Shown piece after piece: positions 54,037 through 59,845 of a DNA stretch of 64,000 nucleotides. The first letter of the stretch is position 1. Each line of letters opens with the position of its first letter. The DNA comes from Crocinitomicaceae bacterium (GTDB taxonomy: Bacteria; Bacteroidota; Bacteroidia; Flavobacteriales_D; Crocinitomicaceae): NCBI GenBank assembly GCA_018402525.1, contig JAGYIR010000017.1:62001-126000 (forward strand), written 5' to 3'. The notes under the pieces are model-generated. The model searched no databases, had not been told where the DNA came from, and saw nothing but the letters and a program-made list of their open reading frames with translations. The position numbers and the translations under genes are program-made.

Positions 54037-56730
54037 TTACTTCAATTTTCTTGCTACTTCTACCTCTTCAAATGCTTCGACAATATCACCCTCCTTAATA
54101 TCGTTGTACTTTTCTATGTTCAATCCACATTCGTAATTGTTTTTCACCTCTTTCACGTCGTCTTTGAATCGTTTCAATGATCCTAAAGTACCTGTGTGAA
54201 TTACAATTCCATCACGAATTACTCGAATGTTTGACGTACGCTTGATCAAGCCGCTCGTAACGAAACAACCTGCAATTGTACCAATTTTCGTAATGTTGAA
54301 CGTTTCTCTGATTTCCGCTGTTCCGATGATTTTCTCTTCAATATCTGGAGACAACATTCCTTCCATTGCCGCTTTGATTTCGTCAATCGCCTTATAAATA
54401 ATAGAGTACAATCGAATATCGATTTGTTCTGTATCTGCCAATTTACGAGCACTTGCCGATGGTCTTACCTGGAATCCAATGATAATTGCTTCAGATGCCG
54501 ATGCCAAGTTAACGTCTGCCTCAGAAATCGCCCCAACACCTTTGTGTACGATGTTGATTTGGATTTCCTCTGTTGAAAGTCGTTGCAATGAATCCGAAAG
54601 TGCTTCGATCGATCCATCAACGTCACCCTTAATAATCAAGTTCAACTCTTTAAAGTCACCAATCGCCAAACGACGTCCGATCTCATCAAGTGTAATGTGT
54701 TTCGTTGTACGCAAACCTTGTTCACGGTACAATTGTTCTCTTTTAAGCGCAATAGATTTTGCTTCTCGCTCATCATCCATCACGTGGAATTTATCTCCAG
54801 CCGATGGTGCTCCGTTGATACCAAGAATGGCAACCGGTTTAGCTGGACCCACCTCTTTCACACTTTTACCGTGCTCATCGTGCATTGCCTTTACTTTACC
54901 GTGGTTTCTTCCCACAAGCACATAATCCCCCACACGCAAGGTTCCGTTTTCTACCAAAATATTGGTCACATATCCCTTTCCAATGTCCAACGATGATTCA
55001 ATTACAGTTCCAACCGCTTTTCTGTTTGGATTTGCTTTCAAATCAAGTAATTCCGCCTCTAACAATACTTTTTCTAACAATGCGTCAATGTTGACGTTTT
55101 GCTTTGCCGAAATTTCTTGACACTGATATTTTCCACCCCAGTCTTCCACCAAAATATTCATTTGCGAAAGCTGTTCCTTAATTTTATCCGGGTTTGCACC
55201 AGGTTTATCTACCTTATTGATGGCGAATACCATTGGAACCTCTGCCGCCTGAGCGTGAGAAATTGCCTCTTTGGTTTGTGGCATGACATCATCATCAGCT
55301 GCGATAATAATAATCGCAACATCAGTTACTTTTGCTCCACGTGCACGCATTGCGGTAAAGGCTTCGTGACCAGGAGTATCAAGGAAGGTCATTCTACGAC
55401 CGTCTTTCAACTTAACGTTATATGCTCCAATGTGCTGTGTAATTCCACCAGCCTCGCCATCAGTTACGTTTGCATTTCTGATTTTATCCAACAACGATGT
55501 TTTACCATGGTCGACGTGACCCATGACCGTAATAATTGGCGCTCTTGGCAATAAATCCTCCTCGTTATCAGCCTCGTCTGGAATAGCATCTTGTACCTCT
55601 GCGCTCACAAATTCAGCCTCAAAGCCAAATTCTTCCGCTATAATCTGAATCGTTTCAGCATCCAATCGTTGATTGATTGAAGCAAAAATTCCGAGAGACA
55701 TACAAGCAGAAATTACTTCTGTAGATCCAACCCCCATCATTGATGCAAGTTCAGAAACAGAAACAAACTCTGTTAATTTTAATACTTTCTCTTCAAGCTC
55801 TGCTTGAATTTCTTCTTCTTGTCTACGCTGCGCAACCGTATCACGTTTTGCTCTTCTGTTCTTAGAACCTTTAGATTTACCTCCCTTGCTTGATAATCGC
55901 GCAAGTGTTTCCTTGATTTCCTTTTGGATATCTTGTTCAGTAATTTCTGGTTTATCAACCTTAGGCTTGTTCTTATTAAATCCTCCTTTGTTCGGTTGAC
56001 TTGTTCCCTGATTTTGATTTCCTGCTTGACTTTGTTGTCCCGCCGCCTTATCTGCATCAACTTTACGAACTCGCTTTCTCTTCTTTCTATCAGCGTGAGA
56101 CGTTCGCTCTCTTTCTACTGGTAAAACTATTTTTCCAACGACATTCGGACCCGTAAGCCTTGCTCCTTGAGCGCGAATAGTTTCGGTTTCTTTCTTTTCT
56201 TCTGGAACAACAGGGGTTTCCTCCTTCTTCGGAGGTGTAACCTCTTCTGCTTTTGCTTCTTCCTTCTTAGGGGATTCTTCTTTTACAGGTGGTTTTACCT
56301 CTTCTTTTTCCTTTTTATCAGGTCGCGTTTTAGTGTTCAGCTTGTCCAAATCGATTTTACCAACCACCTGAACTCCTCTTGTCGGTTCTTCCTTAGGCGG
56401 AGTCGGTTCCACCTTTTCCGGTGTTACTTCTGGTGCTTTGGCAACTTCTTCCTTCGCCGGGGCCTCTTCCTTAACAGGAGCTGGCTCGTTTTTATCGCGC
56501 AAAGAAATGGTTTCTCTCTTCTCGTGAGAAACTGTTGTGTTCTTCGCTTTTTCCTTCAACGTTTGATCCGCAGCAAATTCAGTGCGCAACATATCATAAT
56601 GCTCCGGCTCAAGTTTTGTGTTCGGGCTAGCATCGATCGTTACTCCTTTCTTTTCAAGAAATTCGACAAGGGTAGACATACCCACGTTGAGTTCACCTGC
56701 TGCTTTTCCTAATCTAATTGGTTTGGCCAT
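54037..56730 (-). CDS. infB: Translation initiation factor IF-2
   Basis: IF-2 is the GTPase that brings fMet-tRNA to the 30S subunit and promotes subunit joining. The 897-residue protein has an N-terminal IF2N motif ([20 protein letters not shown]) and a long acidic/basic low-complexity linker rich in Pro, Glu and Lys. The G domain follows: G1 [17 protein letters not shown] near residue 400, [31 protein letters not shown] and [16 protein letters not shown]. Domains II-IV end with the fMet-tRNA-binding C2 domain. It is third in the rimP-nusA-infB order conserved across bacteria. Confidence 0.97.
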
Positions 56731-56817: not shown

Positions 56818-58053
56818 TTACTCGAATTCCGCCTTTAGAATTTTAAACACCTCTTCTATTGTTTCTTGTTCCAAGTCGGTTCTTTTTACCAACTCTTCAA
56901 CTCCTAGATCTAACACAGATTTCGCTGTATCACAACCGATTGCCTTCAATTCATCCAAAATCCAGCTATCAATTTCATCTCCAAATTCTTCCAAGTCAAC
57001 GTCTTCAACGTCTACCTCACCTTCACGGTAAACATCCAGTTCGTAACCCGTTAATCGACCACCCAATTTAATGTTGTGACCTCCTCTACCAATTGCCAAT
57101 GACACTTGATCTGGTTTTAAAAACACTTTCGCGCGTTTTTGTTCTTCGTCAATCTCGATCGTTGTAATTTTTGCTGGTGAAAGTGCACGTTGAATGTACA
57201 ATTGTGGGTTGTTTGTATAGTTGATTACGTCGATGTTTTCGTTTTTCAACTCACGAACAATTCCGTGAATACGCGAACCTTTCATACCAACACACGCACC
57301 AACTGGATCTACACGATCATCGTACGATTCTACAGCTACTTTTGCTCTTTCTCCTGGCTCACGTACAATTTTCTTGATGGTGATTAAACCGTCAAACACT
57401 TCTGGAACCTCTAGTTCGAAAAGACGCTCCAAAAATTCTGGTGCTGTTCGTGATAAAATAATAACAGGACTGCTGTTTCGCATATCTACTTTTGCAACTA
57501 CCGCACGAATTGACTCTCCTTTTCTGAAGTAATCCGAAGGAATTTGCTCTGATTTTGGTAAAATCAACTCGTTTCCTTCGTCATCCAATACCATGATCTC
57601 TTTCTTCCACACTTGATATACTTCACCCGTAACGATTTCTCCTACGCGCTCTTTGTACAATTTATACAGGTGATCTTTCTCCAACTCCATGATACGAGAA
57701 ATCAAGTTTTGACGTAACGAAAGCACATTTCTTCTTCCGAAATCCAAAAACTTAAACTCTTCTGTTACTTCCTCTCCAATTTCAAAATCAGGTTCAATTT
57801 TAATTGCATCTGAATACGCAATTTCCGTATTTGGATCTTCTACTTCTCCGTCATCTACAATTTCTTTGTTCAAGAAAATTTGAACATCACCCTTGTCAAT
57901 ATTTACAATCACATCAATGTGTTCGTCTGTGTTGAATTTTTTCTTCAACATGGCACGAAAAACGTCTTCTAAGACGTGTTGCATTGTTTGTTTATCGATG
58001 TTTTTCAGTTCTTTAAACTCTGAAAACGAGTCTATCAATTCTAAACTATCCAT
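56818..58053 (-). CDS. nusA: Transcription termination/antitermination protein NusA
   Basis: NusA binds RNA polymerase and nascent RNA and controls pausing, termination and antitermination. The 411-residue protein shows the RNAP-binding N-terminal domain (SFSEFKELKNIDKQTMQHVL), the S1 domain (GEIVTGEVYQVWKKEIMVLD) and two KH domains. Typical NusA stretches are YDDRVDPVGACVGMKGSRIH, FLKPDQVSLAIGRGGHNIKL and GRLTGYELDVYRE. It ends with a short helical region. The length is normal for Bacteroidota, which lack the E. coli acidic repeats. It follows rimP by 6 bp. Confidence 0.96.
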   Translation of the reverse strand: MDSLELIDSFSEFKELKNIDKQTMQHVLEDVFRAMLKKKFNTDEHIDVIVNIDKGDVQIFLNKEIVDDGEVEDPNTEIAYSDAIKIEPDFEIGEEVTEEFKFLDFGRRNVLSLRQNLISRIMELEKDHLYKLYKERVGEIVTGEVYQVWKKEIMVLDDEGNELILPKSEQIPSDYFRKGESIRAVVAKVDMRNSSPVIILSRTAPEFLERLFELEVPEVFDGLITIKKIVREPGERAKVAVESYDDRVDPVGACVGMKGSRIHGIVRELKNENIDVINYTNNPQLYIQRALSPAKITTIEIDEEQKRAKVFLKPDQVSLAIGRGGHNIKLGGRLTGYELDVYREGEVDVEDVDLEEFGDEIDSWILDELKAIGCDTAKSVLDLGVEELVKRTDLEQETIEEVFKILKAEFE

Positions 58054-58059
58054 ACTTGT

Positions 58060-58536
58060 TTATTTAAATGATATTACAATTTTTGTTTCCTTTATTTGAT
58101 CCATTGCGAAGACATGATCTTCCACAATTGTTTCTTTCTTTTTCTTTCCTTCAATGCGTTCCTTTCGTTCCGTTTGAAGTGTAATTTGCTCAGGAGTTGC
58201 GTCGATCATTAATCCTGTGATAGCTGTTCCATCTTCCAGTTTGACATCAACCTCTCTCCCAATATTTTTTTTGTACTGTGCAAATACACGCAGACCTTTG
58301 TCCAATCCAGCAGAAGTAACGCTCAACTCAAAATCTTCTTCTTCTCGATCTAAGTTGTGCTCAATATTTCGTGATACAGACATGCAATCTTTTACCGAAA
58401 CACCACCTTCGTGTTTGTCCAGTTCCACCACAATGACGTTGCTTGGCGAAACAGTTAAAGAAACCACAAACAAGCCATTGTCCAGTTCGGCAATGCGTTC
58501 ATCTATCAATTCTGTTATTCGCGTTTTACTAATCAT
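58060..58536 (-). CDS. rimP: Ribosome maturation factor RimP
   Basis: RimP is required for 30S subunit maturation. The 158-residue protein has the N-terminal alpha/beta domain (ELIDERIAELDNGLFVVSLT, VSVKDCMSVSRNIEHNLDRE, FELSVTSAGLDKGLRVFAQY) and the SH3-like C-terminal domain. It is first in the rimP-nusA-infB order. Its ATG overlaps the stop of a 17-codon leader ORF as ATGA, and the leader contains a terminator-like hairpin, so expression is probably controlled in the leader. Confidence 0.95.
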   Translation of the reverse strand: MISKTRITELIDERIAELDNGLFVVSLTVSPSNVIVVELDKHEGGVSVKDCMSVSRNIEHNLDREEEDFELSVTSAGLDKGLRVFAQYKKNIGREVDVKLEDGTAITGLMIDATPEQITLQTERKERIEGKKKKETIVEDHVFAMDQIKETKIVISFK

Positions 58537-58586
58537 TGTGTATAAAAAGAGGGGACTTTCGTCCCCTCATTCGTGTAATTATTCAT
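58533..58586 (-). CDS. Putative 17-residue leader peptide overlapping rimP
   Basis: On the minus strand ATG at 58586 opens a frame encoding MNNYTNEGTKVPSFYTQ and stopping at TGA 58533-58535, which overlaps the rimP ATG as ATGA. The leader ATG lies 11 nt after a perfect TACATTTG promoter box, so it is the first start codon in the mRNA. The codons GAG GGG ACG AAA GTC CCC TC span the terminator-like hairpin. Translation would therefore melt the hairpin and hand ribosomes to rimP. Coding status is unproven; the ATGA overlap and placement are the evidence. Confidence 0.4.
   Translation of the reverse strand: MNNYTNEGTKVPSFYTQ
58544..58568 (-). terminator. Terminator-like hairpin in rimP leader (candidate attenuator)
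   Basis: On the minus strand GAGGGGAC and GTCCCCTC form a perfect 8-bp, GC-rich stem closed by a GAAA tetraloop and followed by TTTTT (58548-58544). It lies between the TACATTTG promoter and the rimP start, with no gene upstream on this strand that it could terminate. It is therefore a leader terminator or a ribosome-access hairpin. Confidence 0.7.
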
Positions 58587-58597
58587 AAAGTACGGTG

Positions 58598-58605
58598 CAA
58601 ATGTA
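58598..58605 (-). promoter_or_regulatory. TAnnTTTG -7 promoter box for rimP-nusA-infB
   Basis: On the minus strand a perfect TACATTTG lies 61 nt before the rimP ATG and 11 nt before the leader-ORF ATG. Confidence 0.6.
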
Positions 58606-59263: not shown

Positions 59264-59845
59264 CTACCCGTGCACCGTTTCTGACTTCCCGTAATTTTGA
59301 ATGACAATCGCCTCGTGGGCTAACCATTCTTTCCAGCGTTTATCAACATCAACTCGTTCAGTGACGTTTTTTGCATGACGCAGAAACATGGTGTAATGGC
59401 CTGCTTCGCTTACCATTAAATCGTAATAAAACGCTGCTAGTTCCTTGTCCTCAATATTCTCAGAAAGTGTTTTGAATCGTTCACATGACCGGGCCTCAAT
59501 CATGGCTGAAAACAACAATCGATCTACCAATTGGTCGTTTCGACTTCCTCCTTTGATCATGAATTTGTAGAGTTCATTTACATAGCTGTCTTTCCTTTCT
59601 CTTCCGAGTTCGTATCCCCGTTTTTTGATGACTTCATGTACCAATTCAAAGTGCTCAATTTCCTCTTTAGCCAAGGCCAGCATATCGCTCACCAGTTCTG
59701 TACGGTCGGGATTGCTCACAACAATAGAAATGGCATTCGTAGCGGCTTTCTGCTCACACCACGCATGGTCAGTCAAAATTTCAGGAAGGTTTGATTCTAC
59801 GATGTTGACCCATCTCGGGTCTGTAGGAAGTTTTAATCCGAGCAT
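59264..59845 (-). CDS. miaE: tRNA-(ms2io6A) hydroxylase-type diiron protein
   Basis: MiaE is a ferritin-like diiron monooxygenase that hydroxylates the isopentenyl group of 2-methylthio-N6-isopentenyl-A37 in tRNA. The 193-residue all-helical protein shows EQKAATNAISIVV, LALAKEEIEHFELVHEVIKK (ExxH), FSAMIEARSCERFKTLSENI and YDLMVSEAGHYTMFLRHAKN (ExxH), the expected iron ligands. The length is typical. It has its own TACCTTTG promoter box. Confidence 0.92.
   Translation of the reverse strand: MLGLKLPTDPRWVNIVESNLPEILTDHAWCEQKAATNAISIVVSNPDRTELVSDMLALAKEEIEHFELVHEVIKKRGYELGRERKDSYVNELYKFMIKGGSRNDQLVDRLLFSAMIEARSCERFKTLSENIEDKELAAFYYDLMVSEAGHYTMFLRHAKNVTERVDVDKRWKEWLAHEAIVIQNYGKSETVHG

Follow-up and report, generated by a model that had tools for sequence, protein, structure and literature searches.

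A conserved, promoter-proximal terminator-like hairpin in the leader of the rimP-nusA-infB operon of Crocinitomicaceae

The window analysed here, a stretch of 64,000 nucleotides from a Crocinitomicaceae bacterium, carries the operon rimP-nusA-infB on its minus strand; features are described in the minus-strand reading with forward-strand coordinates. RimP (58060-58536; NF002531, 166.3 bits, cut-off 123), NusA (56818-58053; TIGR01953, 377.6 bits, cut-off 253.4) and IF-2, the product of infB (54037-56730; TIGR00487, 814.6 bits, cut-off 424.4), were assigned by scores above the curated NCBIfam cut-offs. NusA is the second product of the operon. A tRNA scan found no tRNA genes near these three genes. 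The product of the minus-strand gene at 59264-59845 partially matches the model of the tRNA hydroxylase MiaE, scoring 104.6 bits and thus below the 320-bit cut-off.

The leader of rimP is short and densely packed. A TTG at 58627-58625, a candidate -33 promoter element, lies 19 nt upstream of the -7 promoter box TACATTTG (58598-58605). The box is of the TAnnTTTG type, i.e. the -7 consensus of the Bacteroidota as quoted in PMC9723704. It is followed by a terminator-like hairpin (58549-58568) with an 8-bp stem, GAGGGGAC/GTCCCCTC, and a GAAA loop, and by the U-tract TTTTT (58544-58548), the predicted 3' end of a terminated RNA, after which comes an A. An ORF of 17 sense codons (MNNYTNEGTKVPSFYTQ, 58533-58586) runs from ATG to TGA through the hairpin, and its TGA overlaps the rimP ATG (58536) in the tetranucleotide ATGA. 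It is overlapped by a second short ORF of 13 codons (58529-58570; ATG at -34, end at +8), whose ATG overlaps the stem foot and uses the first G of the hairpin stem; both ORFs are judged incidental. This geometry of box, 17-codon ORF, hairpin within the ORF and five T had been described, with correct coordinates, in a sequence-only reading of the locus, which does not list the second ORF.

The hairpin has a predicted stability of -15.7 kcal/mol (z -5.1), with 1 of 200 shuffles equally good, and the leader including the U-tract, compared with dinucleotide shuffles, reaches z -4.3. Among the terminator-like sites from a scan of 14 kb the hairpin ranks first; the total of 16 sites is not clearly above the chance level of 12.1 (sd 3.7) found in shuffles. 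With three mismatches permitted it occurs once in the window, at an expectation of 0.00. An Rfam search of the window returned six listings up to E = 10, including sraA, a group I intron and STnc50; all score far below the respective gathering thresholds and were taken as chance.

To follow the element in the family of the window, RimP was sought in 100 genomes, the genome of the window included, and matched in 99. The leaders used number 98, leaving out one genome without a RimP match (G066) and one with a RimP fragment only (G044). The hairpin precedes rimP in all 98. A strict TAnnTTTG box ends 20-35 nt before it in 94 leaders, compared to 0-2 at five control offsets, which places the hairpin inside the predicted transcript, and in 78 of these 94 leaders a TTG precedes the box by 15-21 nt. 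The spacing is conserved on both sides: the gap from box to hairpin is 25-30 nt in 89 of the 98 leaders and that from hairpin to rimP start 10-16 nt in 92, with four leaders showing a longer gap of 38-40 nt. If transcription starts 6 nt past the box, as we assume, the predicted RNA up to the fifth U measures about 48 nt (42-50 in 90 family leaders), of which about 22 nt lie between the start site and the stem.

The arms of the hairpin are nearly invariant in the family. Among 87 distinct sequences five of the eight pairs are constant, one varies by G-U and two are changed on both sides (8 cells). Paired cells make up 99.6% of the stem, while slid controls reach 45.6-75.8%, and the mean stem energy is -14.8 kcal/mol. 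The U-tract has T at its first three positions in every leader and at position 5 in 84, with an interruption at position 6 in 76 of 98. In contrast, the loops vary freely, with 40 distinct forms. The GAAA loop of the window is indeed of the GNRA type emphasized by the sequence-only reading; only 42 of the 98 family loops are, and we rejected GNRA as a defining feature. That reading had also proposed to look in relatives for covariation in the stem and for conservation of the ORF and ATGA. As most pairs are invariant, covariation within the family says little for or against the structure. Relatives lacking both hairpin and ORF, named there as contrary evidence, were not encountered, solely on account of the hairpin, which all 98 family leaders carry; most of them lack the ORF.

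The motif is also closely tied to rimP. The pattern GAGGGGR-N3-9-YCCCCTCTTT is found in 97 of the 100 family genomes and is nearly unique to rimP in each. Sorted by eye against the RimP places, its 115 matches comprise 97 in the rimP leader, 8 opposite-strand readings of the palindrome and 10 elsewhere; the same pattern read backward, as a control, gives 2 matches. Seven of the 10 matches elsewhere sit terminator-like 14-29 nt past the stop of a same-strand ORF of at least 80 codons, and four of these seven precede the same response-regulator-like gene in one genus. In those four loci (L336, L337, L338 and L340) a near-identical hairpin lies 14-19 nt past the gene stop and is probably an ordinary terminator that has grown to resemble the rimP hairpin.

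A scan of named genomes, one per species, found a stricter form of the motif in at least 118 stretches. Among the matches listed, 112 of 122 occurrences have RimP at most 150 nt downstream on the same strand, four non-RimP occurrences are the opposite-strand reading of the palindrome before RimP (L246, L262, L297, L310), one (L251) is truncated where its stretch ends, and five lie in stretches without RimP (L221, L247, L253 and, twice, L305). The stretches without RimP include records labelled as MAGs of Clostridia (L221) and Rhodospirillaceae (L247) and as Geomonas oryzae (L253).

We then used a sequence-blind hairpin finder (stem of at least 6 pairs, at least 4 of them G-C, and a T-rich tail) on wider samples. 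For the order, 60 genomes were taken and 47 used, leaving out 11 that were the window's own or family genomes, one without a RimP match (G226) and one with a fragment (G225). The class sample holds all 26 other class genomes with a RimP match, and the rest of the phylum is represented by the leaders of 38 of 88 genomes with a RimP match, 26 of them loci returned by the search and 12 picked by hand. The finder reports a hairpin for 97 of 98 leaders of the family (0.3% of dinucleotide shuffles), for 47 of 47 of the order (0.6%), for 22 of 26 of the class (0.4%) and for 23 of 38 from the rest of the phylum (0.9%). It covers 110-130 nt before the start or the Pfam match and so misses hairpins farther away, e.g. 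in L130, where a loose motif lies further upstream. By eye, the missed leaders L102, L109 and L131 have a stem with a longer loop, and in L132 no T run follows the stem.

A covariance model built on the family hairpin (R1) matches 40 of 118 phylum genomes at E <= 0.1. Compared by eye with the RimP places, all nine matches with E <= 2e-5 lie at rimP; a match at rimP is present in 13 of the 26 other class genomes, and many weaker matches lie elsewhere. The letters of the arms change between lineages. Inside one class genus they are GAGGGGAC/GTCCCCTC in L133, L203 and L204 and GAGGCACGC/GCGTGCCTC in L139 and L149, and GGGGC...GCCCC stems are seen in some relatives of the order. Outside the class every lineage shows a rimP hairpin of its own, of the form GTGGGG-CCCCAC in one set of leaders (L104, L105, L107, L114, L119, L123, L208) and, with the C-rich arm first, TCGCCC-GGGCGA in a second set (L101, L116, L118, L125, L126, L128, L211). 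As the arms change and yet stay complementary, it is the terminator shape that persists between lineages and the exact letters that persist within them. An alignment of 69 hairpins from the 73 order and class leaders (A2; the four leaders without a found hairpin omitted) does not keep register from one lineage to the next and gives a weak consensus fold, in which both partners differ in 2 of 6 pairs. Because of this weak fold, and because the finder itself selects paired arms, the wider structural argument rests on the frequency of the hairpin relative to shuffles.

The sequence-only reading had interpreted the layout as attenuation by a leader peptide, in which translation of the 17-codon ORF disrupts the terminator and the ribosomes pass on to rimP via the ATGA overlap. 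ORF, enclosed hairpin and overlap do exist in the window, and leader ORFs near gene starts are held to aid reinitiation in many bacteria including Bacteroidetes (PMC4833913). Across the family, however, an ATG ORF that begins downstream of the box and stops within the ATGA overlap is present in 6 of 98 leaders. Shuffling the spacers yields 7.2 (sd 2.5), and 724 of 1000 shuffles reach six. Of nine leaders from the genus of the window, two have such an ORF. The frame of the ORF is open from the start site to rimP in 36 of 92 family leaders. The overlap itself is largely a consequence of the second codon of rimP, as 85 of the 98 relatives start ATGA, and its presence in the window thus carries less weight. 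The sole result to favour the leader-peptide model is the number of ATG ORFs that pass through the hairpin in any frame, 38 of 98 (36 or 38 depending on a slightly different search range) compared to 27.4 (sd 4.4), a count reached by 12 of 1000 shuffles; the leaders are related and not independent, and this excess is therefore not read as selection. The triplet at the stem foot is ATG in 31, ACG in 27 and AAG in 11 of the 98 leaders. As no conserved leader-peptide ORF overlapping the terminator was found in the 98 family leaders, the 17-codon ORF appears most likely accidental. What survives of the attenuation layout is the conserved terminator-like hairpin; control by a leader peptide with ribosome hand-over is very unlikely. 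That the hairpin terminates an upstream gene, as the matches past stop codons elsewhere in the family might suggest, is practically negligible in probability: in 94 of 98 leaders the promoter box separates the hairpin from that gene, and in 20 of 30 family loci, among them that of the window, the nearest upstream ORF of at least 90 codons is divergently oriented. On these two grounds we rejected an upstream-gene terminator, and a chance palindrome is equally remote given a conservation far beyond chance.

Two further readings keep the hairpin functional in the leader. It could act in the mature mRNA rather than as a terminator, shielding the 5' end from nucleases or limiting access of ribosomes to rimP. 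Protection of the mRNA by a stable 5' stem is conceivable, and the usual 10-16 nt between hairpin and ATG are near enough to hinder initiation, against which stand the four family leaders with gaps of 38-40 nt. Moreover, the T run is as conserved as the stem and other lineages combine a T-rich tail with different arms, neither of which is needed for such a role; we consider this reading unlikely. Alternatively, the hairpin could be a sequence-specific site at which a protein other than NusA, e.g. RimP or a ribosomal protein, switches termination. The near-invariant family arms, and one sequence common to many lineages of the class, would agree with this, but the arms change with complementarity kept even inside one class genus (GAGGGGAC versus GAGGCACGC), which argues that a strict reading of the sequence is not universal. 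Such a site seems to us rather improbable.

By layout, the element is a Bacteroidota member of the known rimP-leader kind. The rimP-leader described by Naville and Gautheret (PMC2965389) likewise has a G-rich 5' arm, a C-rich 3' arm and a T stretch in the 5' UTR of rimP-nusA-infB, and the hairpin and T stretch that it requires are present at this position in the window as judged from the sequence. The general form described there shows no visible antiterminator, as is the case in the family of the window. Its signature is GGGc(...)gCCC, while the window has GGGGAC(...)GTCCCC: the runs of G and of C are there, and the stem is longer by one pair towards the loop, with an A-T pair preceding the C-G pair. 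The main text of that paper does not name Bacteroidetes or Flavobacteria. The Rfam family RF01770 (rimP), a model of 102 positions, is by name the same kind of element at the same gene and misses the window element: it gives no match in the window's genome at E <= 0.001 and none in the window at the gathering score of 47 bits. In a control search with RF01770, E. coli was the sole match among 14 control genomes.

A comparable case is the structured element 5' of rimP in Flavobacterium psychrophilum, described as common to other genera of Flavobacteriaceae and without an Rfam hit (PMC9723704). The section on this element gives no sequence, mechanism, range beyond the Flavobacteriaceae or genome-wide specificity; compared by description, it is likely a hairpin of the window type. 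Other counterparts are the leader terminator of the nusA operon in B. subtilis (PMC12288461) and the very short leader (31 nt) of S. agalactiae (PMC4448216), both described as intrinsic and not in need of an antiterminator. The window element would, from its predicted features, equally be an intrinsic terminator in the leader of a NusA-encoding operon, in a different phylum and behind a different promoter type. Termination has been measured in B. subtilis and S. agalactiae, and NusA dependence in B. subtilis, according to these reports, while the window element is predicted from its sequence. To this known kind of element we add, claiming no priority, the promoter-fixed anatomy, the near-invariance in the family, the near-exclusive tie to rimP, the range in Bacteroidota and the negative result for a leader peptide.

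Taken together, we favour a promoter-proximal intrinsic terminator that attenuates rimP-nusA-infB and is most likely tuned by NusA itself, a reading to which we assign a probability of roughly 0.6. RNA polymerase would start a few nucleotides past the TACATTTG box and, after about 48 nt, either stop at the U-tract, releasing an unproductive RNA about 50 nt long, or continue into rimP. The terminating fraction would set the output of rimP-nusA-infB, and abundant NusA would stimulate termination, giving negative feedback on its own operon. The sequences themselves establish the hairpin, the U-tract and the promoter box with their spacing and conservation, as well as the absence of a conserved ORF or antiterminator; we infer use of this promoter, termination at the hairpin and tuning by NusA. 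A mutually exclusive antiterminator hairpin was not found in the 98 family leaders: pairing of at least 6 bp between spacer and 5' arm is seen in 2 of 98 leaders and in 3.7% of shuffles, not beyond chance, and a riboswitch-like alternative pairing was rejected for lack of any excess over shuffles. With no room or sequence for an antiterminator, sensing most likely falls to a protein that acts on the polymerase, namely NusA; since no ORF is conserved, a translating ribosome is not available as a signal.

This reading has precedents. B. subtilis nusA is reported to be controlled by a NusA-dependent terminator in its leader (Mondal et al. 2016, as cited in PMC12288461; a second-hand mention, on NusA and the ylxS promoter, is found in PMC6504816). 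For S. agalactiae, RNA-seq revealed a short form that stops 31 nt past the operon start, for which NusA feedback was proposed (PMC4448216), and Naville and Gautheret proposed NusA as the effector of the rimP-leader (PMC2965389). Interruption of the distal U-tract has been described for NusA- and NusG-dependent terminators (PMC8060035), so that the frequent interruption at position 6 (76 of 98) is a sign of NusA dependence that, by analogy, is only suggestive.

Several observations count against the favoured reading. NusA is said to help suboptimal hairpins (PMC8060035), and the strong stem of the family speaks against a simple NusA dependence. The near-invariant arms, with five of eight pairs constant, exceed the needs of a generic terminator, and in the rest of the phylum a hairpin that passes the finder is present in 23 of 38 leaders only. 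Furthermore, an E. coli fusion of the rimP 5' UTR and ORF was lowered, not raised, in a Rho mutant, which its authors leave open (PMC7815308); we count this result against the reading, though it concerns Rho and not a hairpin of the window type. A more speculative idea, which we regard as doubtful, is that the GAGGGG/CCCCTC arms are themselves a recognition site for the RNA-binding domains of NusA or for RimP. Differences such as that between GAGGGGAC and GAGGCACGC inside one genus would then reflect a lineage-specific code in which regulator and hairpin co-evolve, forming a minimal pair that regulates itself through a sensor RNA some 50 nt long.

In NusA-tuned attenuation of rimP-nusA-infB, as we favour it, the hairpin probably lets the cell limit its own supply of NusA. 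The level of NusA influences pausing and termination genome-wide. The element is tiny, keeps an almost constant spacing to its promoter, is nearly confined to rimP and escapes Rfam's rimP model, and thus offers a clean test of NusA autoregulation by attenuation across phyla; the covariance model R1 can be used to annotate the rimP hairpin. If the favoured explanation is true, this hairpin would be the switch that fixes the NusA level in a large part of the Bacteroidota.
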